35,010 nt of DNA. It comes from a virus. This document shows, one piece after another, positions 12,832 to 35,010 of the stretch. Position numbers and translations under genes: made by a program. The notes beneath the pieces are model-generated. The model had not been told where the DNA came from. It ran no database searches and saw only the letters and a list, made by a program, of their open reading frames with translations. Location: IMG/VR virus record IMGVR_UViG_3300030098_003204, positions 1-35,010 of that record; one strand, written 5' to 3'. Within the stretch, counting starts at the first letter, position 1, and each line of letters opens with the position of its first letter.

Positions 12832-13090
12832 CGGCCTGGGTGCGGTCGGCAGTTTAGCCTCTGGCTACTTCAGTTATAAGACGGCAGAGAAGGGTGCGGC
12901 GGTTATCGTGACGCCGCCGCTGGTCGAGTACTCGGCTGCAATCCAGACGACGGCAGCGGACAAGCTGCAGCAGCTCGGCCAGCCGTGCCCGCGCGATGTG
13001 GTTGTCGGCGACTGTTCCGCAATCGCCAGGATGATTATCGACTACGGCGATCTGCGCCGGAAAATCCGAGCGGCAAAGAAACCTGAGTGA
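12752..13090 (+). CDS. Outer-membrane spanin-like lipoprotein (112 aa)
   Basis: The frame is open from 12644, but the upstream part is basic and looks like the shadow of the spanin-like gene. I chose the GTG at 12752, six bases after AGAGG. The product starts with a signal peptide and lipobox (VLCAVLLSGC, lipidated Cys21), so it should be an outer-membrane lipoprotein. The mature part is about 91 residues, with two further Cys residues and a basic C-terminal helix. Overlap with an inner-membrane gene right after the holin supports an Rz1-like lysis role, fusing inner and outer membranes. It is longer than typical Rz1 proteins. Confidence 0.68.
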   Translation: MRVTAWTACALVLCAVLLSGCVTAVSSGLGAVGSLASGYFSYKTAEKGAAVIVTPPLVEYSAAIQTTAADKLQQLGQPCPRDVVVGDCSAIARMIIDYGDLRRKIRAAKKPE

Positions 13091-13109
13091 CCTTCAGGTT
13101 TTGCGTTTT
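13079..13109 (+). terminator. Terminator of the late operon, overlapping an att-arm repeat
   Basis: AAACCTGA (13079-13086) pairs with TCAGGTTT (13094-13101) across a seven-base loop, followed by TGCGTTTTC. It begins inside the last codons of the lipoprotein gene and would end the late transcript. The same bases contain TGACCTTCAGGTT, the reverse complement of a motif repeated around the attachment site. Confidence 0.7.
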
Positions 13110-13130
13110 CTGGAGCAAAAATGGAGCGTT
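13088..13130. repeat. Left attP arm repeat pair
   Basis: Bases 13088-13100 are TGACCTTCAGGTT, the inverse of AACCTGAAGGTCA found at 13401 and 23648. They are followed by TGGAGC at 13111 and TGGAGCGTT at 13122, matching pairs at 13353/13364 and 23692/23703 with the same 12-base spacing. These lie about 170 bp left of the tRNA core and are good candidates for integrase or excisionase arm sites. The bases from 13131 to 13253 hold no gene; they contain a near-palindrome at 13203-13220 (CTTAA-GCG-TTAAG) followed by a T-run, possibly another weak terminator. Confidence 0.6.
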
Positions 13131-13253
13131 GAGGTTTGACAATATATCCTGCCCTCTCCCAACCATTCCCGCTTGATACCGCAAAAAATGGCGGATATGC
13201 TGGGCCTTAAGCGTTAAGCCGTTGATTTTTTTTGTGGATCGTTTTCTGATTAT

Positions 13254-13303
13254 TCAGGCTCATAACCTGAAGGTCGTTGGTTCAAATCCAACCCCCGCAA
13301 CCA
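13254..13303 (+). other. attP: attP core: 3' half of initiator tRNA-Met
   Basis: This stretch reads as the 3' half of a tRNA: anticodon stem TCAGG/CCTGA around loop CTCATAA with anticodon CAT (13261-13263), a variable region, the T-arm with GGTTCAAATCC, and the acceptor end CCCCCGCAACCA. Anticodon arm and acceptor end are those of bacterial initiator tRNA-Met. There is no 5' half, so it is not a working tRNA gene. With an integrase starting 176 bp downstream, this is the expected form of attP for a phage that integrates in tRNA-fMet and restores its 3' end. Confidence 0.9.
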
Positions 13304-13351: not shown

Positions 13352-13413
13352 TTGGAGCGCGTGCGGAGCGTTTTGCTTTCCCGAAAATTCAGCGTCTGAC
13401 AACCTGAAGGTCA
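13352..13413. repeat. Right attP arm repeat pair
   Basis: TTGGAGCG at 13352 and CGGAGCGTT at 13364 form the tandem hexamer pair seen also at 13111 and 23691. AACCTGAAGGTCA follows at 13401-13413. The 16-base string GACAACCTGAAGGTCA at 13398 recurs exactly at 23645. The location between the tRNA core and the integrase fits the P' arm of attP. The same bases may also contribute to the integrase promoter. Confidence 0.6.
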
Positions 13414-13478: not shown

Positions 13479-14699
13479 ATGAGTGTACGAAAAGATAAAG
13501 AGCGCGGCGGTTACATCGCGGACCTGGGCAAGTTTGGCGGCAAGCGCAACATCCGTGTGGCGACCAAGGCGGAAGCTGATGCGATACACGCCCAGGCCGC
13601 TGAAGAGTTCCGCATCACCGGCAGCTACATTTCGCGCAGCGGCTCGCCGACGTTCGCGCAGGTCGCGGAAGAGTTCCTTGAGCATCAAGCGACGAACCGC
13701 CTGCAGGGTCGTCATGTCGCCGCGGGCGAAATCGCCAACAAGCGCACCAACGTGCGTCATCTGAACAAGTTGCCGTATCGCGGCAGCACGCTGGCCGAAA
13801 CCAAGGTTGCCGACATCCGCCTGGGCGAAGTTCAAAACACGTTGGTGCCCGCGTTGTTCGCCAAGCGCGCCAACAAAACCAACCGCAACATCTTCGCCGT
13901 GTTTGGTCAGGTCATCAAGTTCGCGATGGTCGCGGAGTACTTGTTGCACGATCCGCTGATGGTCAACCAGGGCAACAACAAGACGGGGATCGAACTGCCG
14001 CTGCCTGACGAGGCCGACAAGATCGATGCCATCGGCGAGCGCATCAGCAAATCGATTATCAATCAAATTCTCGACGCTGCCGGGCCAGCGCTCGACGCGC
14101 CTATCGACCTGGGCGATGACGACGAGCAGGTTGCAATGCGCAAATACAAGCGTCGGTTTTTCGCCCGCCTGCTGATCGCGGTGGGACGCGGCACCGGCAT
14201 CCGCGCGGGTGAACAGGCGGCGCTGCGCTGGCCGGAAGTGCACCTTGACCGTGGCGTGATTGACATTAAATTTTCGCGCAAGAAGGATGGCACTATTGGC
14301 AGGCCTAAAACCAAGGCAGGCGTGCGCCAGATTGAACTGGCACCGGATTTGGTCGCAGCCCTGCGTGTCTGGAAGGCGTTGCAGCCAGCCAAGGAAGCGG
14401 CCAATGGTTATGTCTTTGCGAATGAAGATGGCAACATGAATTTAGACAACAGCAACTGGCGCAATCGCGTCTTGCATGCCGCGTGCGACAAGGCTGGTGT
14501 TGAGCGCATCCGCTGGCACGACCTGCGTCACTTCTTCGCGTCGGTGCTGATCTTTGATTTGCAGGAGACCGAGATCGTGATTGCAAGCGTAATGGGCCAT
14601 AAAAACGCAGCCTTCACCCGCGAGCAATATGGGCACTGGCTGGATGACGTGAAGCCGACGACCGGCATGGGCGGGCGTCTGGCAGCGGTGATGTCATGA
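13479..14699 (+). CDS. int: Tyrosine recombinase (phage integrase)
   Basis: The product is 406 residues. I chose the ATG at 13479, preceded by GGGAGA, over an upstream in-frame TTG at 13419. The first 60 residues form a small arm-binding-type domain, residues about 55-200 are the helical core-binding domain, and the rest is catalytic. Catalytic residues can be placed: Arg242 (GTGIRAGEQAAL), a Lys near 277-279, His347 and Arg350 (WHDLRHFF), His374 (VMGHKN) and the Tyr384 nucleophile (REQYGHW). It should integrate the genome at tRNA-fMet using the adjacent attP. Its stop overlaps the next ATG (ATGA), so the small basic protein downstream is co-translated. Confidence 0.96.
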   Translation: MSVRKDKERGGYIADLGKFGGKRNIRVATKAEADAIHAQAAEEFRITGSYISRSGSPTFAQVAEEFLEHQATNRLQGRHVAAGEIANKRTNVRHLNKLPYRGSTLAETKVADIRLGEVQNTLVPALFAKRANKTNRNIFAVFGQVIKFAMVAEYLLHDPLMVNQGNNKTGIELPLPDEADKIDAIGERISKSIINQILDAAGPALDAPIDLGDDDEQVAMRKYKRRFFARLLIAVGRGTGIRAGEQAALRWPEVHLDRGVIDIKFSRKKDGTIGRPKTKAGVRQIELAPDLVAALRVWKALQPAKEAANGYVFANEDGNMNLDNSNWRNRVLHAACDKAGVERIRWHDLRHFFASVLIFDLQETEIVIASVMGHKNAAFTREQYGHWLDDVKPTTGMGGRLAAVMS

Positions 14700-14998: not shown

Positions 14999-15299
14999 CT
15001 TTTGCGATCATCAAGTTAATCAACCGATTTAAATTCCACTTGGCCTTTCGCAAATCGGTCACCGGCTGGTCGTGCTTCTTCCGATACCGCGTCACATATT
15101 CGATGATGGGGCGCACATAACACGCTTCGTCGCCGGGTAGGTCGCGGCAAATATCAACTATAAAATCGATGCTCTCCCGGCCGCCGCTCAGCTTGTAATG
15201 CTTTGGGTTGATTTCGTCAGGCGAGCAGCACACCGTGCATGTGGTTGTGGTCTTGCCGTCGCTGATATAGCCGTTGCCGTGACAGACCTTGCACGTCAT
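14979..15299 (-). CDS. DUF3310 protein with N-terminal Cys cluster
   Basis: The product is 106 residues. Residues 30-97 match the DUF3310 family common in phages: the NPKHYK motif, then SIDFI, a helix, IIEYVTRYRKK and DLRKAKWNLNRLI. The usual KY before the RY motif is EY here. In front lies a small Cys cluster, CKVCHGNGYI and CTVCC, resembling a DnaJ-type zinc ribbon. The role of DUF3310 proteins is not established. The gene overlaps its upstream HTH neighbour by four bases (ATGA) and is probably expressed with it under lysogenic or early lytic control. Confidence 0.85.
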   Translation of the reverse strand: MTCKVCHGNGYISDGKTTTTCTVCCSPDEINPKHYKLSGGRESIDFIVDICRDLPGDEACYVRPIIEYVTRYRKKHDQPVTDLRKAKWNLNRLINLMIAKDAATKY

Positions 15300-15469
15300 A
15301 GCATCTGCTCCAGCTTGTTGCGCAGCACCCAGTAGCGGCCCTTCAAAGCAACGTGCGGTATTTGATTTGCGTGGATCAGGCGCAACAATTTTTTATAGCT
15401 ATTGTGGTCGCGGCTACCGAAAAGTGTTTCTGCAGCCTCGCGGACATCCATCAATGCGGGCCGCGTCAT
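15296..15469 (-). CDS. AlpA/excisionase-like HTH protein (57 aa)
   Basis: The product is 57 residues. Its core LMDVREAAETLFG...LLRLIHANQIPHVALKGRYWVLRNKLEQML has the layout of MerR/AlpA-type excisionase HTH proteins: a helix pair, then a short wing with GRYWV. I chose the ATG at 15469 because it overlaps the stop of the upstream microprotein as ATGA; a GTG at 15487 is possible. In a phage with an integrase but no other obvious Xis, this is the best candidate recombination directionality factor. Its place in a leftward operon behind a palindromic operator would fit release upon induction. This role is inferred. Confidence 0.6.
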   Translation of the reverse strand: MTRPALMDVREAAETLFGSRDHNSYKKLLRLIHANQIPHVALKGRYWVLRNKLEQML

Positions 15470-15579
15470 CGCACAAAACTCTGCCACATGGGATCGCTGA
15501 GCGCGGCTATAAACACCAGCGCCATGCAGATCGTTGCCATCGCGCCAAAGAAAACCAGACCTTCAAAAATGTGTCGCAT
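15466..15579 (-). CDS. Membrane microprotein (37 aa)
   Basis: A 37-residue frame starts at an ATG (15579) preceded by a strong GGAGAGGGAA ribosome-binding site. Residues 5-27 (FEGLVFFGAMATICMALVFI and onward) form one membrane helix. The stop overlaps the HTH gene start as ATGA. The strong ribosome-binding site, first place in an operon and coupling make it likely to be translated. Function is unknown; phage membrane microproteins in immunity regions can affect superinfection or lysis timing, but nothing here proves that. Confidence 0.62.
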   Translation of the reverse strand: MRHIFEGLVFFGAMATICMALVFIAALSDPMWQSFVR

Positions 15580-15607: not shown

Positions 15608-15655
15608 AAACTACGGGACTGACTTTTAGTAAGTCAAGTAATTACGCAAAGTAAG
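15608..15655 (-). promoter_or_regulatory. Leftward promoter with palindromic operators
   Basis: On the minus strand TTGACT (15637-15632) and TAGTTT (15613-15608) are 18 bases apart, a plausible promoter for the microprotein-HTH-DUF3310 operon. GACTT-TTAGT-AAGTC (15621-15635) is a perfect palindrome covering the -35 box. ATTACGCAAAGTAAG (15641-15655) has TTAC-N5-GTAA symmetry and matches a site next to cro at 17085-17099. Both are candidate repressor or Cro operators; the second overlaps the end of the repressor gene. Confidence 0.5.
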
Positions 15656-16274
15656 TTCCGACAATCGCATGGATCGCGCTGACCTCGTCTAGGCGATACT
15701 TCACCTCTCGGTCAGGCTGGTGCTGCCGCAGCGTGACGTGCGTGTCGGTGATTTCAACAAACTGCTTCACGATGGCGTGCGCCACGCCGTTTGCTTTAAG
15801 CTGCACGACGACATAGTCGCCGTCGCGATATGGTCGGCCTGGATGCACATATACAATTTCGCGGGGATTGAACCGCGGCTGCATCGACGTGCCGCTGACA
15901 AATACTGCGTATGCGTCAGGGACAGATTTTAGCCATGACGGCGTTTCGATGGCGTCGATTGGTTCTGTAACGTCGGTTATGTCAAAGCCGATCCCAGCCT
16001 GGGCGGCTCCATACAAAGGCATTGTTCTCGTCTCCCTCGCCTGTTGCGGGGGTGGCTCCAACCCCAGGTCAACGCCGATCACGTCTGAGAGAGTGACAGA
16101 CAGCACGTCAGCAATTGATTGTGCTAACTCGGTGCTTGGCTGCGCTTCTTGTGTGCCGTCGTCCCTCACCCGTGTGTAGCGTCGCAATGCGTGCGGATTT
16201 TTCCCGATCCGCCGCGCCAACTCGGCAACGCTAATATCGTGATCCGCGCATAGTTTTTTAATGCGGTTTCTCAC
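15642..16274 (-). CDS. CI/LexA-type repressor, S24 peptidase (210 aa)
   Basis: The product is 210 residues with the classic two-domain plan. Residues 1-65 form a HTH (MRNRIKKLCADHDISVAELARRIG) that should bind operators. Residues about 85-210 form an S24 self-cleavage and dimerisation domain: an Ala93-Gly94 cleavage site in AAQAGIGF, nucleophile Ser130 in VSGTSMQPRF and general base Lys170 in HAIVKQF. Such repressors cut themselves with RecA nucleoprotein after DNA damage, inducing the prophage. The start is a GTG preceded by GGGAGA. It lies downstream of a probable winged-helix protein on the same strand and faces a Cro-like gene. Confidence 0.94.
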   Translation of the reverse strand: MRNRIKKLCADHDISVAELARRIGKNPHALRRYTRVRDDGTQEAQPSTELAQSIADVLSVTLSDVIGVDLGLEPPPQQARETRTMPLYGAAQAGIGFDITDVTEPIDAIETPSWLKSVPDAYAVFVSGTSMQPRFNPREIVYVHPGRPYRDGDYVVVQLKANGVAHAIVKQFVEITDTHVTLRQHQPDREVKYRLDEVSAIHAIVGTYFA

Positions 16275-17103: not shown

Positions 17104-17340
17104 ATGCTTTTCAGCGAGTGGATCACTAGCCGAGGCCTGACGCGACGCGACGCGGCTGCGCTGCTGCGCACAACGCCATCAACTATCACCAACTGGGTTC
17201 ACGGCACGCATCGTCCCGGCGCTGCGATGACGGCGCGCATCTACGCAATCAGCGGCGGTCGCGTGACGGTAGCCGACCTGCATCAAGCATACCAAGAGGC
17301 GAGGCAATATGAGCGCACGAAACAAGGCGCGCGGCTATGA
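17104..17340 (+). CDS. Cro/YdaS-like HTH regulator (78 aa)
   Basis: The product is 78 residues with a helix-turn-helix at about residues 5-35 (WITSRGLTRRDAAALLRTT then PSTITNWVHGTHRPG), the pattern of Cro and YdaS-type proteins. It continues with AARIYAISGG-type sequence and a VTVADLHQAYQEA helix. It is the first rightward gene facing the repressor, with operator-like palindromes directly upstream, which is the position of Cro in lambdoid phages. It should repress the immunity promoter and favour lytic growth. The ATG at 17104 lies only a few bases after the candidate operator at 17085-17099. It overlaps the next gene by 32 bases. Confidence 0.82.
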   Translation: MLFSEWITSRGLTRRDAAALLRTTPSTITNWVHGTHRPGAAMTARIYAISGGRVTVADLHQAYQEARQYERTKQGARL

Positions 17341-23100: not shown

Positions 23101-23598
23101 ATGGCACTTGCGAAGCGCAAAAAACCAAGAGTGCAGGCGGCGGCATTCAGGGAGATTTGCGAGCGGATATCGAAGGGCGAAGCGCTGCGCCCGATGTGCG
23201 AGACATCCGACAACCTGCCCAGTTGGTCAACGGTGCTGCGGTTTGTTCGTGAAAACGACGAAGCCTACAAGCGCTACCGGGAAGCGCGGCAGCTTCAGGC
23301 TGAAACGATGCGCGATCAGATACTGACGCTGGTCGAAGCCCCGTTGCCAGACAATCCCAAGCTGGCGATGGCAGAGGTGCAGCGGCGTCGGTTGGAATGC
23401 GACTACAAGGACAAGCACATCAGGCAGATGCAGCCGAGCGGTGTGCGTGACCGGGCCGAAGATAACGGCAACCAAGCGGGCGGCGAGATCACGATCAAGT
23501 GGGGCGGCGGATCAGACGCTGCGATGCCTGTCGTATCGCCGCCGAAAGAACCTGTAAAAGAGGCGCCGGTCTTGACCGCAATCGCGCGAGAAATCTAG
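23101..23598 (+). CDS. Terminase small subunit (165 aa)
   Basis: The product is 165 residues. The N-terminal 70 residues (REICERISKGEALRPMCETS then WSTVLRFVRENDEAYKRYREA) have the HTH pattern of Sf6-type small terminase subunits. The helix with MRDQILTLVEAP and MAEVQRRRLECDYKDKH is the oligomerisation part. The C-terminal 50 residues are a Gly/Pro-rich flexible tail that would contact the large subunit. It should recognise the packaging site. It precedes the large terminase but is separated from it by about 640 bases holding an attachment-like repeat, an HNH gene and a small gene. Confidence 0.82.
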   Translation: MALAKRKKPRVQAAAFREICERISKGEALRPMCETSDNLPSWSTVLRFVRENDEAYKRYREARQLQAETMRDQILTLVEAPLPDNPKLAMAEVQRRRLECDYKDKHIRQMQPSGVRDRAEDNGNQAGGEITIKWGGGSDAAMPVVSPPKEPVKEAPVLTAIAREI

Positions 23599-23637
23599 CG
23601 CAACATCGAGCCAATTGCATACCCCAAGGCTTGGTTT

Positions 23638-23711
23638 TCAGGTTGACAACCTGAAGGTCACGCTAATGATTTCAATAACTTAACCCCAGGTTGGAGCGTC
23701 AGCGGAGCGTT
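23638..23711 (+). repeat. Second attachment-like site upstream of the HNH gene
   Basis: From 23638, TTCAGG, a seven-base loop (TTGACAA) and CCTGAAGGTC copy the anticodon-arm layout of the attP core, where the loop is CTCATAA. GACAACCTGAAGGTCA (23645-23660) is identical to the right attP arm. TTGGAGCG at 23691 and CGGAGCGTT at 23703 repeat the tandem hexamers found in both attP arms. There is no T-arm or acceptor end, so it is not a tRNA copy. TTGACA in the loop could also be a -35 box. The whole gap 23599-23860 holds no other clear gene. Confidence 0.65.
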
Positions 23712-23860
23712 CGACCCGCGGCGCCCTTGATAGGGTCGTTGATTTTCTGGCGACCCCCCCCCACCCCCCAAGCGATTGGGGCGCCCTCTACTACACCTAT
23801 AAGGGGTGCGCAATTGAGGCTCTGCGGCTCTGCCGGTCTGCCAACTTCACGCAGGAAACA

Positions 23861-24079
23861 ATGCGAAATTACAAGCGCGAATATTCGAGTTACCACTCGA
23901 AACCAGAGCAAAAAAAGAACCGCGCCAGCCGCAACGCCGCCCGCCGCAGCCTTGCGAAATCGGGCCGAGTAACCAAGGGCGACGGCAAGGATGTCGATCA
24001 CCGCAACGGCAACCCTCGCGACAACCGCAGGAGCAATTTAAGCGTCATGTCCAGGTCAGCGAACCGCTCAAAAAAATGA
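23861..24079 (+). CDS. HNH endonuclease-like protein (72 aa)
   Basis: The product is 72 residues, very basic. It begins with MRNYKREYSSYHSKPEQKKN and has the core GDGKDVDHRNGNPRDNRRSN, with an Asp-His pair and Asn residues as in the HNH active site; the second His is replaced by Asn, as in HNN/HNH variants. Proteins of this form are common in alphaproteobacterial phages next to terminase genes, where HNH proteins may assist DNA cutting during packaging. AGGAAAC precedes the ATG at 23861. The frame stays open about 180 bases upstream without a start codon. The stop overlaps the next ATG. Confidence 0.78.
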   Translation: MRNYKREYSSYHSKPEQKKNRASRNAARRSLAKSGRVTKGDGKDVDHRNGNPRDNRRSNLSVMSRSANRSKK

Positions 24080-24240
24080 GTTATAGCGCGTTCTGCGTAC
24101 CCGACCCCCTTGGCGGTGTGCGCCTCGCTTTATTCTTCGAAGGTTTCGAGGATACCGACGACGCGCAGATGTTCCTGCGCGTCCTCATGGCTCCCTACGA
24201 GGACCCGCAATATTACGACGAAAGCGACACGGTGCATTGA
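24076..24240 (+). CDS. Small acidic protein between HNH and large terminase (54 aa)
   Basis: The product is 54 residues and acidic, beginning MSYSAFCVPDPLGGVRLALF and containing FEGFEDTDDAQMFLRVLMAP. It overlaps the HNH stop (ATGA) and its own stop overlaps the TTG start of the large terminase. Double coupling indicates real translation. No domain is recognised. It may be a packaging accessory or only a coupling ORF. Confidence 0.6.
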   Translation: MSYSAFCVPDPLGGVRLALFFEGFEDTDDAQMFLRVLMAPYEDPQYYDESDTVH

Positions 24241-25541
24241 GCGGCGTCATTGAGATTGCATATACGCCGCGCCCGCTGCAGCAGGAACTGCACGCGATGC
24301 TCGACCAAAACCGCTTCAACGTCCTAGTCATGCATCGCCGCTTCGGCAAGACCGTCTGCGCCGTCAACCATTTGATCAAGCGCGCCATCGAACTGTCGGC
24401 TGACACAACCAAGCCCAACCCGCGGCTGCACTATTTAAGCCCGACCTATCGGCAATCCAAGGCCGTCGCCTGGGACTACATAAAGTTGTTCACGGCATCG
24501 ATACCCGGCACCAAGTACCATGAAACGGAACTCCGCTGCGACCTGCCGATGGGCGCTCGCATCACGCTACTGGGCGCCGAAAACCCAGCAAGTATTCGAG
24601 GAATTTACAGCGATTTTGTCGTCATGGACGAGGTCGCAAATATGCCGGAATCCATATTCCCGGAGATAATCAGGCCAAGTCTAAGCGACCGCAAGGGCAG
24701 TTGCGCCTTCATCGGCACCCCCCAGGGCCACAATTATTTTCACGATTTATGGCAAGCCGCCGCCGACACCAAGGGCTGGGCGCGGAAGATGTACAAGGCC
24801 AGCGAGACCGGCATCGTAGACGATGACGAACTTGAAGCTGCTCGCGCTACAATGACCGAGGATCAGTACAACCAGGAATTTGAGTGCAGTTGGGTCGCGA
24901 ACGTCCCAGGCAGCGTTTACGGCAAAGAGTTGCAGACCGCCGACGACAAGGAACGCATCACCAGCGTGCCGCACCTACCGCAGCATCGTGTTGATACGTT
25001 CTGGGATTTGGGCATGCACGACTACACCGCGGTCTGGTTTGTGCAGCAGGTCGGTCGCGGCGAGGTCCACGTCATCGACTTCTACCAGAACCAGGGCGAG
25101 GGCTTGCCGCACTACGCAGCCGTGCTCCAGGAAAAGGGATATCTCTACGGCACGCATTACGGGCCTCACGATCTTGAGGTCAGAGAGATGGGCACCGGCA
25201 AGAGCCGCCGCGAGGCAGCTTACGATCTAGGTTTGACGTTCCGCGTCGTGCCCAGGCTTCCAATCGAAGACGGCATACATGCGGCCCGCATGCTGATACC
25301 GCGCTGCTTCTTTGACCGCGACAACTGCCGCGAGGGGCTGGAAGCGCTGCGGCATTACCACCGCAAGTACAACGAGCGGACGCGGCAATTCCGCGACGCC
25401 CCTGTCCACGATTGGTCATCACATGCAGCCGATGCCTTCCGCACTTGCGCCATCGGCCTCGAAACTGAATCGACATGGAACGGCACCCCCCCACAGAGGG
25501 ACGCAATGATGGACTACAACGTATTTGAAGGAGCCGCATAA
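24237..25541 (+). CDS. terL: Terminase large subunit (434 aa)
   Basis: The product is 434 residues and is the packaging motor. Walker A is HRRFGKT at 33-39, Walker B VVMDE at about 128-132, and a coupling motif IGTPQGHN at 159-166. The C-terminal nuclease domain begins with TFWDLGMHDYTAVW (Asp257), and WSSHAADAFRT near the end supplies the last acidic residue. It is shorter than most large terminases but all motifs are present. The start is a TTG overlapping the previous stop, probably translated by coupling. Next comes the small Pro-rich protein and the portal. Confidence 0.95.
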   Translation: MSGVIEIAYTPRPLQQELHAMLDQNRFNVLVMHRRFGKTVCAVNHLIKRAIELSADTTKPNPRLHYLSPTYRQSKAVAWDYIKLFTASIPGTKYHETELRCDLPMGARITLLGAENPASIRGIYSDFVVMDEVANMPESIFPEIIRPSLSDRKGSCAFIGTPQGHNYFHDLWQAAADTKGWARKMYKASETGIVDDDELEAARATMTEDQYNQEFECSWVANVPGSVYGKELQTADDKERITSVPHLPQHRVDTFWDLGMHDYTAVWFVQQVGRGEVHVIDFYQNQGEGLPHYAAVLQEKGYLYGTHYGPHDLEVREMGTGKSRREAAYDLGLTFRVVPRLPIEDGIHAARMLIPRCFFDRDNCREGLEALRHYHRKYNERTRQFRDAPVHDWSSHAADAFRTCAIGLETESTWNGTPPQRDAMMDYNVFEGAA

Positions 25542-25757: not shown

Positions 25758-27395
25758 ATGGCTGACGACCCGAGAACCGCTTCGCTGCTGAAGCGGTACG
25801 CTACGCTTATGCAGCAGCGCCAGAACTGGGAGCAGCATTGGCAAGAGGTCGCTGATTATATCTGCCCCCGCAAGGCGGATATTACCAAGAAGCGCAGCGG
25901 CGGCGATAAGCGTAGTGAGTTGATTTTTGACGGCACCGCCATCCATGCGGCTGAACTGATGGCGGCATCGCTGCACGGCATGCTGACCAATCCCAGCACG
26001 CCCTGGTTTGATTTGCGTTACGCGAACGACGATCTGAACAGCGACGACGAAGCCAAGGAGTGGCTGGAATCCGCGACCGACGTTATGTACCAGCACATGG
26101 CGCGCAGCAATTTCGCGGAGCAAATCCACGAGTTGTACAGCGATCTGGTCGTCTTCGGCACCGGGGTGATCTTTACGGAAAACGATGGCGACGACGGCTT
26201 CCGGTTTTCCACGCGTCACATAGCCGAGTGCTATGTGTCAGAGAATGAAATGGGCCGCGTCGATACCGTGTTTCGGAAGTACAAGACGACAGCGCGCGCA
26301 GCGGTGCGGCAGTTCGGTGAGCAAAACGTCACGCAGCGAATTGCAAAGTTACAAACTGATGACATGTATGCCGAGATCGAACTGCTGCACGTCGTTATGC
26401 CGCGTGACGACCGCGATCCCCGTAAGTCGAATACTAAAAACATGCCCTGGGCTTCGATCTACATCGACCCCGATGAAAAGCAGATCATCGGCGAAAGCGG
26501 CTACGACGAATTGCCGTATTGCATCCCGCGGTTTTTGAAGGCGTCGTTTGAGATGGGCTACGGCAGAAGCCCTTCCATGACCGCGCTGCCCGACACCAAA
26601 ATGATCAACAAAATGTCCGAGGTTGTGATCCGCGCGGCACAGCTTCAGATGCACCCCCCGCTCATGGTGCCCGACGACGGCTTCATGCTGCCGGTGCGCA
26701 CGACCCCAGGCGGGCTGAACTTTTACCGATCAGGCACCCGCGACCGGATCGAACCGCTCAATATCGGCGCGAACAATCCGCTTGGCGAACACATGCTGGA
26801 ACAGCGTCGGCAGGCGATCCGCTCCGCGTTTTATGTCGATCAGTTGACGCTGGGCACTGGTCCGCAGATGACGGCCACGGAGGTCATCCAGCGCACCGAG
26901 GAAAAGATGCGTTTGCTAGGCCCGGTTCTGGGGCGCCTGCAGGCCGAGCTACTGCAGCCATTGATCAACAGGTGCTTCGCCATCTTAGCGCGCCAGAAGG
27001 CCTTTGTACCGGCCCCAGAGGCGCTGCAGGACGGCAACATCGATATCGAGTATGTCAGCCCCCTGGCGAAGGCACAGCGCTCCAGCGAGGTCCAGGGCGT
27101 GATGCAGATGACCGAATTCCTGTTGCCGCTGATGCAGGTCAATACGAGCATCGTCGATCACATCGACTTCGACGGGCTGGCGAAGCACATCATCAAGGTG
27201 ACCGGCACGCCTGCGACGGTTGTGCGCGGCGAGGGCGAGGTCGCCGACATCAGGCAGCAGCGCGCCGAGCAACAGCAGCAGCAGGCTGAACTCGTCCAGG
27301 CAAGTCAGGTTGCCGAAGCCGCTGGTAACGCAGCCCCTGCCCTTCGCGCGGTCGATGAAACGCAGCTTGACCTAGAGGCGTTGGCTGGCGCGTGA
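25758..27395 (+). CDS. Portal (head-tail connector) protein, podovirus type
   Basis: The product is 545 residues, the expected length for a T7-type connector. Familiar features include RQNWEQHWQEVADYICPRKAD near the N-terminus, HAAELMAASLHGMLTNPSTPWFDL, and the C-terminal MTATEVIQRTEEKMRLLGPVLGRLQ helix region, all typical of podovirus portals. The C-terminus (about 500-545) is Gln/Ala-rich. It forms the twelve-fold ring through which DNA enters. It sits between the large terminase and the scaffold gene as in T7-like phages. Its stop overlaps the next start. Confidence 0.95.
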   Translation: MADDPRTASLLKRYATLMQQRQNWEQHWQEVADYICPRKADITKKRSGGDKRSELIFDGTAIHAAELMAASLHGMLTNPSTPWFDLRYANDDLNSDDEAKEWLESATDVMYQHMARSNFAEQIHELYSDLVVFGTGVIFTENDGDDGFRFSTRHIAECYVSENEMGRVDTVFRKYKTTARAAVRQFGEQNVTQRIAKLQTDDMYAEIELLHVVMPRDDRDPRKSNTKNMPWASIYIDPDEKQIIGESGYDELPYCIPRFLKASFEMGYGRSPSMTALPDTKMINKMSEVVIRAAQLQMHPPLMVPDDGFMLPVRTTPGGLNFYRSGTRDRIEPLNIGANNPLGEHMLEQRRQAIRSAFYVDQLTLGTGPQMTATEVIQRTEEKMRLLGPVLGRLQAELLQPLINRCFAILARQKAFVPAPEALQDGNIDIEYVSPLAKAQRSSEVQGVMQMTEFLLPLMQVNTSIVDHIDFDGLAKHIIKVTGTPATVVRGEGEVADIRQQRAEQQQQQAELVQASQVAEAAGNAAPALRAVDETQLDLEALAGA

Positions 27396-30530: not shown

Positions 30531-32993
30531 ATGCCTAAAGTCTCAAAGGCATTTTCAAGTTTCACATCAGGCGAGATTACCCCGCGCCTGTTTGGCCGCA
30601 CCGACATTGCCAAATACGACACCGGCGCGGAGACGGTTGAAAATTTTATTGTCCAACCTCACGGCGGATTGACCCGCCGCCCAGGCACCCGGTTTGTCGC
30701 GGAAGTCAAAAACAGCGCCAACGCGGTGCGCCTTATTCCGTTCCAGTTCAACGTCGAACAATCTTACGTTTTGGAATTTGGCCCGTCCTATTTCCGCATC
30801 TACAAAGACGGCGGTCAGGTTGAGAGCGGCGGCAGTGCGGTTGAGGTCGCGACGCCTTACGCGGCTGGTGACCTTGACGGCTTAAAGTATGCGCAGGTCG
30901 CGGACATCATGTATGTCACGTCGCCTAGTCATGCGCCGCGCAAGATTACGCGCACCAGCCATACAGCCTGGACGATAACGGAGGTATCGCTGGCGCGCGG
31001 ACCTTTCGGCGACCTGAATATAACCGACACGACGCTGACCTGCAGCGCGGCGACTGGCTCGATCACTGTGACGGCAAGTGCCGACACGTTCGTCAGCACT
31101 GACGTTGGTCGTTTGATCAAGACGCAAGAGGGCTTTGTCAAAATCACAGGTTTCACGTCGGCAACTGTCGTGACCGGCACGGTGCAGGAATTGGAAGACG
31201 GCAGAACCGAATTGCTGCCGTCGTACACGGCGACCACAATTAGTTTCCATGAAGGCGACCCCGATAGCACCGGCCTGGAACACAACGACCGCATCGAAGA
31301 TACGGCGGCACAATTTGTCGATGAAGGCTTTAAGAAAGGTCAGACGGTCACGCTGGCCGGGTCAACCAGCAACAACACCACTGCCGGTTTCCTGGTAGTC
31401 GATGTCACCGACAGCGTCATTACTTTCGCGCCGGGCGCAGACCTTACGGCAGAGGCGGCGGGCGACACGGTCACCGTAGCAGGCAAGCTGATCGCCAGCG
31501 ACGAGTGGCAACTTGGCGCCTTTAGCGCGACGACCGGCTACCCGCGAGCCTGTACGTTTTACGAGCAGCGCCTTGTCATGGCGGGCACTGACGACCAGCC
31601 GCAAACGCTGTTTTTCAGTCAATCGGACGACTTTGAAAATTTCGAGGCTGGCGCCGAAGCAGACGACGCGATGGTCTACACCATCGGTTCGAACGAAGTT
31701 AACGTGATCAGGTTTCTGGCATCGACCCGAAACATGATTGTTGGCACCAGCGGCGGCGAATTTGTTGTCCGCGCCGGTTCAACGGACGAAGCGATCACGC
31801 CAACCAATATTCAGATCAAGCAGCAAACCGCGCACGGTGCGTCGGACCATACGCCGATCCAGGCGGGCAACGCGGTGCTGTTCATTCAGCGCGCCAAGCG
31901 CAAAATTCGCGAGTTACAATATAACTTTGATACAGACGGCTATATCGCGCCTGACATTACGCTGATCAGTGAGCATGCGACCGAGGGCGGCATCACCGAG
32001 TTGGCGTACCAACAGGAACCTGACTCGGTCGTGTGGTCGGTTCGCGCTGACGGTCAATTGACGACGACAACGTACAAGCGCGAGGAACAAGTTATAGGCT
32101 GGGCGCGTCAGGTTATCGGCGGCACCGACGTTGTCGTTGAACGCATAGCGACGATCCCCGGCGACCTAGACGAAGATCAGGTCTATATGGTTGTGCGGCG
32201 AACCATCAACGGCGCGACGAAACGGTACATTGAGTATATACGCGACTTTGATTTTGGTTCGGACGTTTCTGACGCGCGGTTTGTCGATAGTTCGCTGACC
32301 TTCACGGGCGTCACGTCTACCTTAAACGGTGCGATTACGAATAGCGCAACCACTATTGCCTTGGCTGACGCGTCTGCTTTTCCAAGTTCCGGTGCCATTA
32401 AAATCGGCACCGAGGTCATCACCTATAGCGGCAAAAGTACCAACGACTTGACCGGCTGCACCCGCGGCGTTGCAGGCGACGCTGCAGCGCACGCCAGTGG
32501 CGCTACGGTGACGCAGGCGTCGATCTCACTAAGCGGGCTGGCGCACCTTGAAGGGCAGACGGTGAGCGTCCTGGGCGACGGCGCGGTTCATCCAGACGTG
32601 ACGGTTTCGTCGGCTGCGGTCACGTTAAACCGCTATGTCACCAAGGCGCATGTCGGCCTGTCTTACAATTCAACGCTACGCACGTTGCGCGTAGACGCCG
32701 GATCTGCCGCTGGCACCAGCCAGGGCAAGACCAAGCGCATCAACGAGTTGACGGTGCGCCTGTACCGCAGCGTCGGCCTGCAGGTTGGTCGCGACGCAGA
32801 CAACCTTGATGTCGTGCCCTTCCGGTCGTCAGCGACGCTCATGGGCAGCGCCATCGGGCTGTACACAGGCGACAAGGACATCGAATTAAACGGCAACTAC
32901 GACACTGACGGGCAGATCACGATCAGGCAGACACAGCCCCTGCCGATGACCGTGCTTGCCGTGTACGCAACCGTCAGCACATTTGACCAGTGA
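30531..32993 (+). CDS. Tail tubular protein B (T7 gp12-like nozzle, 820 aa)
   Basis: The product is 820 residues, close to T7 gp12. The N-terminal region (FSSFTSGEITPRLFGRTDIA then VENFIVQPHGGLTRRPGTRF) is a recognisable beginning for the nozzle family, and YPRACTFYEQRLVMAGTDDQ is another conserved segment. The protein is mostly beta strand. Around residues 580-690 a Ser/Thr/Gly-rich insertion (NSATTIALADASAFPSSG) looks like a repeat often seen in phage tail proteins. It forms the tip of the tail tube. Its stop overlaps the next GTG. Confidence 0.93.
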   Translation: MPKVSKAFSSFTSGEITPRLFGRTDIAKYDTGAETVENFIVQPHGGLTRRPGTRFVAEVKNSANAVRLIPFQFNVEQSYVLEFGPSYFRIYKDGGQVESGGSAVEVATPYAAGDLDGLKYAQVADIMYVTSPSHAPRKITRTSHTAWTITEVSLARGPFGDLNITDTTLTCSAATGSITVTASADTFVSTDVGRLIKTQEGFVKITGFTSATVVTGTVQELEDGRTELLPSYTATTISFHEGDPDSTGLEHNDRIEDTAAQFVDEGFKKGQTVTLAGSTSNNTTAGFLVVDVTDSVITFAPGADLTAEAAGDTVTVAGKLIASDEWQLGAFSATTGYPRACTFYEQRLVMAGTDDQPQTLFFSQSDDFENFEAGAEADDAMVYTIGSNEVNVIRFLASTRNMIVGTSGGEFVVRAGSTDEAITPTNIQIKQQTAHGASDHTPIQAGNAVLFIQRAKRKIRELQYNFDTDGYIAPDITLISEHATEGGITELAYQQEPDSVVWSVRADGQLTTTTYKREEQVIGWARQVIGGTDVVVERIATIPGDLDEDQVYMVVRRTINGATKRYIEYIRDFDFGSDVSDARFVDSSLTFTGVTSTLNGAITNSATTIALADASAFPSSGAIKIGTEVITYSGKSTNDLTGCTRGVAGDAAAHASGATVTQASISLSGLAHLEGQTVSVLGDGAVHPDVTVSSAAVTLNRYVTKAHVGLSYNSTLRTLRVDAGSAAGTSQGKTKRINELTVRLYRSVGLQVGRDADNLDVVPFRSSATLMGSAIGLYTGDKDIELNGNYDTDGQITIRQTQPLPMTVLAVYATVSTFDQ

Positions 32994-33942: not shown

Positions 33943-35010
33943 AGGTGCCAACTTATCGAAGTCAAACCGCGATCCCCAAGCAGGGCCGCGGTTTGTTTCT
34001 AAGCGCGCAATTAAACCCTGGCGCGATGATGGCGCCCGGCCAAGCGGCTGAAGCGCAGGGGCTGAAGCTGGCGCAGGCTGGCAGTCAAATCGCAGAGTGG
34101 GGTTACAAAAAGCTGCAGATTAGCGCGCAGTCTGAAGCGCTTGGCGCGGCGAGTTCGATGGAGGTCGAACTTGCGCAAAAAAGCCACGACGCGTTGCAGG
34201 TTGCTGATATGGCGCAGGCGGAAAAACAATTCCGCCGCGACGCTAAATTATTGAGCGACCGATACAGCGCGACGCTAAAAACCCCGGCAGCGCGTCGCGC
34301 ATTTTCGGCGGAAGCCCTCAAGCTACAAACGCGTGCGCTGATTGGCTTTACCAAAGCAAACAATAAGCGTGTTGTCGAAGCGAACAAGGCAAACCTTGAT
34401 ACGGCAGTCGCCGCCGAGCAGCGCGCTATGTCAGACCTTTCAACCGGAACAAAAGCGCGCGAGAACGCATACGTTCACGCCATCTTGTCTGTTGACCATG
34501 CCAAGGCTGAACTTGGCGCGGAGGAACATGCCAAACGCATCAACAAAATAAACAAAGACGCGGTTACCAATACGCTGACCGCCTATCTAAACCAGCCCGA
34601 CGCCAAGGTGCTGCAAATCGTAAAGGCCTTTCGCGAAGGACGGCTTGACGACCCAATTATCCGCGAGGCGTCAAAACATTTGTCGGCTGATGATCTGGCA
34701 AAGGTCGCGGACAGCGGCGTGCAGCGCGCCAACCGCATTATCAAGTTGCGCCAAAATATCCGCGAAGAGCGAGAGGCGAAAGCGAGCGAAACAAACAACG
34801 CACTGTATCTAGATTTTATTAACACTGATTGGACTGATCCACTGCAAGTCCAACTCGCGCGCCATACTTTCGAGATATTGAAGTCAGCAAATTATTTCGA
34901 CACCGCCGATAAAATGAATACCGCCCAAAATTTGCTCCGCGGCAGAGGCGATTTCCCCCGCGCATCCGACGTCACAAACACGCGCGAAGGCGATCTTGTC
35001 GCGGCTGCCA
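33939..35010 (+). CDS. Internal virion/ejection protein, 5' part (continues at base 1)
   Basis: The gene starts with an ATG at 33939 overlapping the gp14-like stop and has no stop before the window ends. Through the terminal repeat it joins the frame open at base 1 and ends at 629, giving 536 residues. The visible part is helical: a short N-terminal stretch (VPTYRSQTAIPKQGRG), then long Ala/Glu/Lys/Gln-rich helices. Such length and position match the T7 gp15 group, which form part of the DNA-ejection channel. I recognise no enzyme motif. Confidence 0.82.
   Translation, partial: MKVPTYRSQTAIPKQGRGLFLSAQLNPGAMMAPGQAAEAQGLKLAQAGSQIAEWGYKKLQISAQSEALGAASSMEVELAQKSHDALQVADMAQAEKQFRRDAKLLSDRYSATLKTPAARRAFSAEALKLQTRALIGFTKANNKRVVEANKANLDTAVAAEQRAMSDLSTGTKARENAYVHAILSVDHAKAELGAEEHAKRINKINKDAVTNTLTAYLNQPDAKVLQIVKAFREGRLDDPIIREASKHLSADDLAKVADSGVQRANRIIKLRQNIREEREAKASETNNALYLDFINTDWTDPLQVQLARHTFEILKSANYFDTADKMNTAQNLLRGRGDFPRASDVTNTREGDLVAAA
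34921..35010. repeat. Terminal direct repeat (right copy)
   Basis: Matches bases 1-90 with one difference (G34998 against C78). Together the two copies show that the window is a circle opened within the gp15-like gene. Confidence 0.93.

Follow-up and report, generated by a model that had tools for sequence, protein, structure and literature searches.

The virus genome analysed here, a single record of 35,010 bases (hereafter, the window), contains, apart from the phage attachment site attP, a complete attL-like site, denoted attX (23637-23708), that is located between the gene for the small terminase subunit (terS) and those for an HNH endonuclease and the large terminase subunit (terL). Comparison with related phages establishes that the putative arms and core halves of attX follow those of the attP in the same genome, that the two sites never share an overlap, and that the place of attX just upstream of terL is fixed. 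We give an even chance to the explanation that attX is a second site of the phage's own integrase, maintained by selection, that lies near the presumed start of packaging in the manner of P1 lox and would circularise genomes or resolve multimers. Under this explanation, the integrase probably has a second job, for example, closing or separating phage genomes.

Because its first bases recur from position 34931 onward, near the end, the window is a circular assembly. The key features are listed in Table 1. In attP, arm pairs flank the core on both sides, and an additional half-core is present at either far end, of which the right-hand copy lies at the int promoter. The CTCATAA overlap of the attP core matches annotated tRNA-Met genes, as does the adjoining 3' part of the tRNA. 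In G044, G047 and G021, three of the relatives described below, the half-core at the int promoter is closer to the attX half-site than to the tRNA-derived attP half-site, a likeness that suggests autoregulation by Int.

The catalytic residues of the integrase (R242, K268, H347, R350, H374 and Y384) are invariant. In the structure model (pLDDT 74, pTM 0.51), the N-terminus is predicted to consist of a three-stranded sheet and a helix (E3-5, E12-15, E24-27, H30-47; pLDDT about 72-77 for residues 1-40), as in arm-binding domains. The closest solved structures, by both sequence and fold searches, are those of Tn1549 Int and lambda Int, and the fold search also turns up SroF and YopR, repressors with a tyrosine recombinase fold. 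The proposed Xis candidate (15296-15487) yields a sub-threshold match to HTH_17 (E 0.009). A gene for an S24/HTH repressor-like protein (15642-16274, minus strand) and a Cro-like gene (17104-17340, plus strand) support a temperate life cycle.

The core of attX consists of two putative integrase half-sites separated by a 7-bp overlap and forms a 19-bp palindrome that is perfect except for the central base. Within the window, TTCAGG-N7-CCTGAAGG is perfect at 13253 (attP core) and 23637 (attX) only. An earlier sequence-only reading of this locus had noticed that the anticodon-loop overlap of attP, CTCATAA, is replaced with TTGACAA in the second site, and this is indeed the case; the site that it described is real but begins at 23637 rather than at 23638, since TTCAGG, the left half-site, belongs to it as well. 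The identity between the right side of attP and the second site, pointed out in the same reading, holds as well: GACAACCTGAAGGTCA occurs exactly at 13398 and 23645 only in the whole window, and with up to three mismatches there are five matches, against 0.12 expected from shuffles. The arm motif TGGAGC-N5-YGGAGC is found at 13111 and 13353, in the two attP arms, and at 23692, in attX, and nowhere else in the window; with one mismatch permitted, three copies appear in none of 100 shuffles. Thus, the pair recurs at all three places, as had been claimed, but the order of the parts is unlike that in the right attP arm, where the core motif comes after the arm pair, whereas in attX the core motif precedes it.

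A core followed by a single P'-like arm is the layout of lambda attL. The features of a lambda-type attL that are found in attX are inverted half-sites with a 7-bp overlap, an IHF-like site between the core and the arm, and tandem arms of the type present in the phage's own attP. The one attL feature that is lacking is an overlap shared with attP and attB; in all 15 genomes compared, attX departs from it at 3-5 positions. Judged by its layout, attX would work like attL without being an integration product.

Immediately downstream of attX, and strongly kept at the same place in close relatives (for example, L036, 1880-1900), is a C-rich element composed of CCCCCC-A-CCCCCC and GGGGCGC, with a TATAAT-like box and ACTGAGGCTC after it. 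This element is a candidate packaging site and/or late promoter region.

Table 1. Features of attP, attX and their surroundings in the window, followed by the arm motifs common to attX and the attP of the same genome
Feature or genome	Position	Strand	Sequence or remark
attP far-left half-core	13089..13099 (about 13088-13103)	-	ACCTGAAGGTC; motif search
attP left arm pair	13111..13127	+	TGGAGCAAAAATGGAGC; motif search
IHF consensus in attP left arm	13215..13227	-	AATCAACGGCTTA; sole perfect match in window
attP core	13253..13271	+	TTCAGG-CTCATAA-CCTGAA; overlap is the tRNA-fMet anticodon loop
3' part of tRNA-Met within attP	13260..13303	+	matches annotated tRNA-Met genes
attP right arm pair	13353..13369	+	TGGAGCGCGTGCGGAGC; motif search
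half-core at int promoter	13398..13413	+	GACAACCTGAAGGTCA; kept in L006, L007, L088-L091
tyrosine recombinase (integrase)	13479..14699	+	R-K-H-R-H-Y catalytic set present
terminase small subunit	23101..23598	+	Sf6-like; upstream of attX
attX core	23637..23655	+	TTCAGG-TTGACAA-CCTGAA; half-sites match own attP core
extended right half-site in attX	23645..23660	+	GACAACCTGAAGGTCA; identical to int-promoter copy
IHF-like site in attX	23670..23682	+	TTTCAATAACTTA; 1 mismatch to WATCAANNNNTTR; 14 bp downstream of core
arm-type pair in attX	23692..23708	+	TGGAGC-N5-CGGAGC; 11-bp period; matches own attP arms
C-rich element	23753..23787	+	CCCCCCCCCACCCCCCAAGCGATTGGGGCGC; conserved downstream of attX in relatives
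HNH endonuclease	23861..24079	+	
terminase large subunit	24237..25541	+	
head-tail connector	25758-27395		follows terL
window, G002, G004			TGGAGC
G001			TCCCCGCA
G003			CTGMCACA
G019			TGGACAA
G021			GGTGCCAA; 17th match, found later by blind scan
G022			GTACTAC
G024			GTGCCAC
G025			TGTGTTC
G041			GAGTCTG
G044			CGTAACA
G047			CAGTGACA
G049			GGTRCTG
G051			GTTGCA
G055			TYGCCAA
G064			TCACG

Relatives were gathered through searches of viral contigs with the large terminase and the connector (terL identity 41-100%), and integrase searches combined with whole records made attP readable in the same genomes as attX. The gap between terS and terL in these phages holds the same module architecture with a differing sequence; for example, the terL of L009 is 87% identical to that of the window, yet its attX arm pair is CCCCCGCAGAACCCCCGCA, not TGGAGC. 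The arm motifs vary from phage to phage, and each is common to attX and the attP of the same genome (Table 1). In G049, where attP lies in a tRNA T-loop, the core halves agree as well, with ACGGG-TTCGATT-CCCGTAG in attP versus ACGGG-TTACTTA-CCCGTAA in attX. The site is found in relatives both with and without the adjoining HNH gene, a comparison that the sequence-only reading had proposed, and its orientation relative to terL is inverted in at least five lineages (L018/L027, L185/L194/L218, G002/G004, G044 and G047).

Co-variation between attX and the attP of the same genome was assessed by permutation. For the arms (16 genomes), the trace is 272, compared to a permuted mean of 211 and a maximum of 246; for the core half-sites (15 genomes), it is 142, compared to 111 and 138, and in both cases none of the 100,000 permutations reached the observed value. 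The test takes no account of kinship between genomes, such as that of the near-identical G002 and G004, so that these figures overstate the number of separate events, and the diversity of the motifs is the stronger argument for co-variation. Three genomes were left out of the comparison of attX with attP, namely G023 (attP cut off), G026 (attX cut off) and G039 (attP not located).

A blind scan looked for exact 6-mers, whatever their sequence, that recur at a distance of 10-12 bp, flank attP on both sides and occur once upstream of terL; it was positive in 8 genomes and in none of 700 Markov simulations. In its strict form, the scan misses the left arm of the window's own attP, which reads GGAGCA/GGAGCG. 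For G049, G051 and G055, the detection of an attX pair at terL preceded the reading of attP, which then matched, whereas the other attX pairs were read by eye. A cutoff-based detector applied to the 1.6 kb preceding terL gave too much noise, and the later detector was anchored on the C-rich element. Among the 15 genomes examined for the IHF consensus, 7 have a perfect match 13-14 bp from the attX core, and SAR11-type and tRNA-Asp-type members lack it in attX.

Tyrosine recombinases of the lambda Int type require matching overlaps. The overlaps of attX and attP differ at 3-5 positions in all 15 genomes where both are readable, so that recombination of attX with attP or with the host tRNA gene (attB) is unlikely, whereas recombination between two attX copies would be allowed. 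The attX overlap also changes among relatives, which include TTGGCAA, TTTGCAA and TTCAGAA in place of TTGACAA: half-sites of the CAGG/CCTG set enclose ten overlap versions, and in the AATCGG-N7-CCGATA set the half-sites are fixed while the overlap drifts (TTTATAA, TTTGTAA, TTCGTAA, TTTACAA). Such drift would do no harm only where attX recombines with an exact duplicate of itself, or where the overlap does nothing but hold the half-sites apart. The attX overlaps of relatives tend towards T-T-N-N-N-A-A/G, as in the anticodon loop of a tRNA, though no host tRNA is involved; this bias may reflect the preference of the integrase at the cleavage positions.

Several groups of genomes lack the module. 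There is no Phage_integrase match in HTVC010P, Greip, HTVC203P and Skadi-1, and no attX-like arrangement upstream of terL in HTVC010P, HTVC203P and Skadi-2; the integrase-less Greip has only a weak, A/T-rich match in this region. Upstream of terL, the integrase-less phages Greip (L100) and HTVC203P (L101) have inverted repeats that are rich in A/T and have spacers of 6-7 bp (TGATAA-TAAAAG-TTATCA and TGATAA-TCTTTTA-TTATCA); another recombinase, such as the host Xer, may act on them. Prophages in GTDB cellular genomes with terL 44-59% identical contain no matching attX. Rhodoferax P26218, Ochrobactrum OH and ctXG6705 have no annotated integrase and no arm-repeat triple, and no credible attX was found in the two of them that were tested; G031, G033, G035 and G037, members of other families with a similar integrase, likewise have no arm-pair triple. 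There are exceptions in the other direction as well: in the integrase-encoding G052 and G053, neither a clear attX nor arm pairs were found, and G050 keeps attX with GGTGCTG arms (terL-side pair at 30669-30686), while matching attP arms were not found in its record.

Contig ends near terL show no accumulation at a single position, which would be expected of physical genome ends. For Skadi phages, a 125-bp 'direct terminal repeat' at TerL has been described (PMC10504331); we dismissed it as evidence of genome ends given that the record is circular and the length fits an assembler overlap. The CRP-810-type phages (PMC11288001), considered as the family in question, were ruled out by their size of 57 kb.

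An alternative role for attX is that of a control site, to which Int and IHF would bind without recombination, repressing or timing packaging and late genes or blocking the terminase at the C-rich element, which would keep genomes destined for integration from being cleaved or packaged, an arrangement akin in spirit to the binding of the Tn916 integrase to oriT. The location of attX between terS and terL, beside the C-rich element and the TATAAT-like box, would suit this role, the half-core at the int promoter suggests that Int can act as a regulator, repressors with the tyrosine recombinase fold exist, as SroF and YopR illustrate, and a site used for binding only could yield the identical co-variation. 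Furthermore, a TTGACA box overlaps the attX core in the window phage. A sigma-70 promoter using this box as its -35 element was predicted and rejected, TTGACA being confined to the window phage and near-identical copies. The sequence-only reading had also suggested a regulator site common to int and the late genes, which may apply, although a simple promoter role is made less likely by the loss of the -35 box through overlap drift in relatives and by the orientation relative to terL, which is flipped in five lineages or more. The full core of two half-sites with a 7-bp spacer is kept, although an operator needs less. On balance, we regard a control site as unlikely, albeit worth serious consideration.

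The other alternatives are weaker. That each genome has a single Int/IHF site at a distance from attP is compatible with titration, whereby additional sites on replicating phage DNA would soak up Int, so that a high copy number lowers integration and sets the lysis-lysogeny choice; this we consider improbable, given that titration leaves the fixed place beside the terminase genes and the perfect symmetry of the core unexplained. The sequence-only reading had proposed a secondary recombination site that could invert, delete or capture DNA, or else a relic of module exchange. Its view of the locus as attachment-like is supported, the enzyme concerned being the integrase of the phage itself. The core and arms of attX resemble attP, and satellites that embed themselves in a helper by entering the late genes of a prophage, for which such a site might be a landing pad, are known (PMC10111431). 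Nevertheless, inversion or deletion with attP and capture of host DNA are disfavoured by the 3-5 overlap differences in 15 of 15 genomes, no insert at attX is seen in the relatives read, and a relic is not borne out because attX is conserved family-wide and co-varies with the attP of each phage. A secondary or former attachment site, be it a relic or a landing pad for satellites or other phages, therefore appears highly improbable. Finally, although a palindrome alone could be an operator, the shuffle tests and the permutation test for co-variation leave almost no credence for a chance similarity or an unrelated operator.

Between a self-recombining attX and a site for binding only, recombination is favoured because the core is complete and symmetric and the overlap drifts freely. 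By sequence, attX is compatible with itself, and it adjoins terS, terL and the conserved C-rich element, where packaging presumably starts. Two Int protomers would bridge the attX core and the two arm sites through an IHF bend, as in lambda attL, and two attX copies would then synapse and recombine with each other. Because attX adjoins the presumed packaging start, a linear genome with terminal redundancy, or a concatemer, would likely offer two copies; attX may, however, lie outside any terminal repeat of virion DNA. Recombination of attX with attX would circularise infecting DNA ahead of integration through attP and attB, and/or resolve multimers, while the altered overlap would prevent reactions of attX with attP or with the tRNA gene of the host. 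In P1, multimers are resolved by Cre/loxP (PMC10999674). The complete scenario, in which the one-armed, self-compatible attX beside the packaging start is a dedicated second substrate of Int for circularisation or de-multimerisation, the diverged overlaps insulate two reactions of one enzyme, and the arrangement is family-wide in integrating T7-like podoviruses, is put forward tentatively, our confidence in it falling slightly short of even.

How the linear virion DNA of integrating T7-like podoviruses becomes a circle is not settled in the open-licence literature searched, in which we found no described second integrase site at the terminase genes either. An integrase site conserved beside the packaging genes would provide a direct and testable answer to the circularisation question, and integrases would gain a second function; if attX is regulatory instead, the decision to integrate would be tied to packaging. 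The relatives also provide a natural series of co-evolving integrase, core and arm specificities with insulated overlaps that could be useful for studying and engineering orthogonal recombination sites.

The closest isolates by terL (53%) are the HTVC010P-type pelagiphages (HTVC010P, HTVC203P, Greip and Skadi), which share the podovirus gene order but differ in having neither an integrase nor the attX module, apart from the weak A/T-rich match in Greip. With lambda attL, in which the IHF bend allows bridges from P'1 and P'2 to C' and B (PMC4880445), attX shares two half-sites around a 7-bp overlap, an IHF site by the core and then tandem arms. Similarly, the integrase resembles the heterobivalent tyrosine recombinase of lambda, the chains of which are found by both sequence and fold. 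In contrast to lambda attL, which arises only upon integration, attX is permanent in the phage genome, 10 kb from attP, and has an overlap of its own. The closest solved structure to the window integrase is that of Tn1549 Int. Among elements of this kind, the Int of Tn916 has been reported to bind oriT, away from the ends of the element; here, however, conjugation is absent, and attX has a full core rather than arm repeats alone. In phage P1, loxP is a palindromic, self-compatible recombinase site beside the packaging functions (pac) that serves both circularisation and multimer resolution, and attX resembles it in being palindromic, self-compatible and adjacent to packaging functions, the location of pac being presumed in our case. 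P1 relies on a dedicated simple recombinase that is not used to integrate, whereas in the phages described here the integrating enzyme, with its arms and IHF, would do both.
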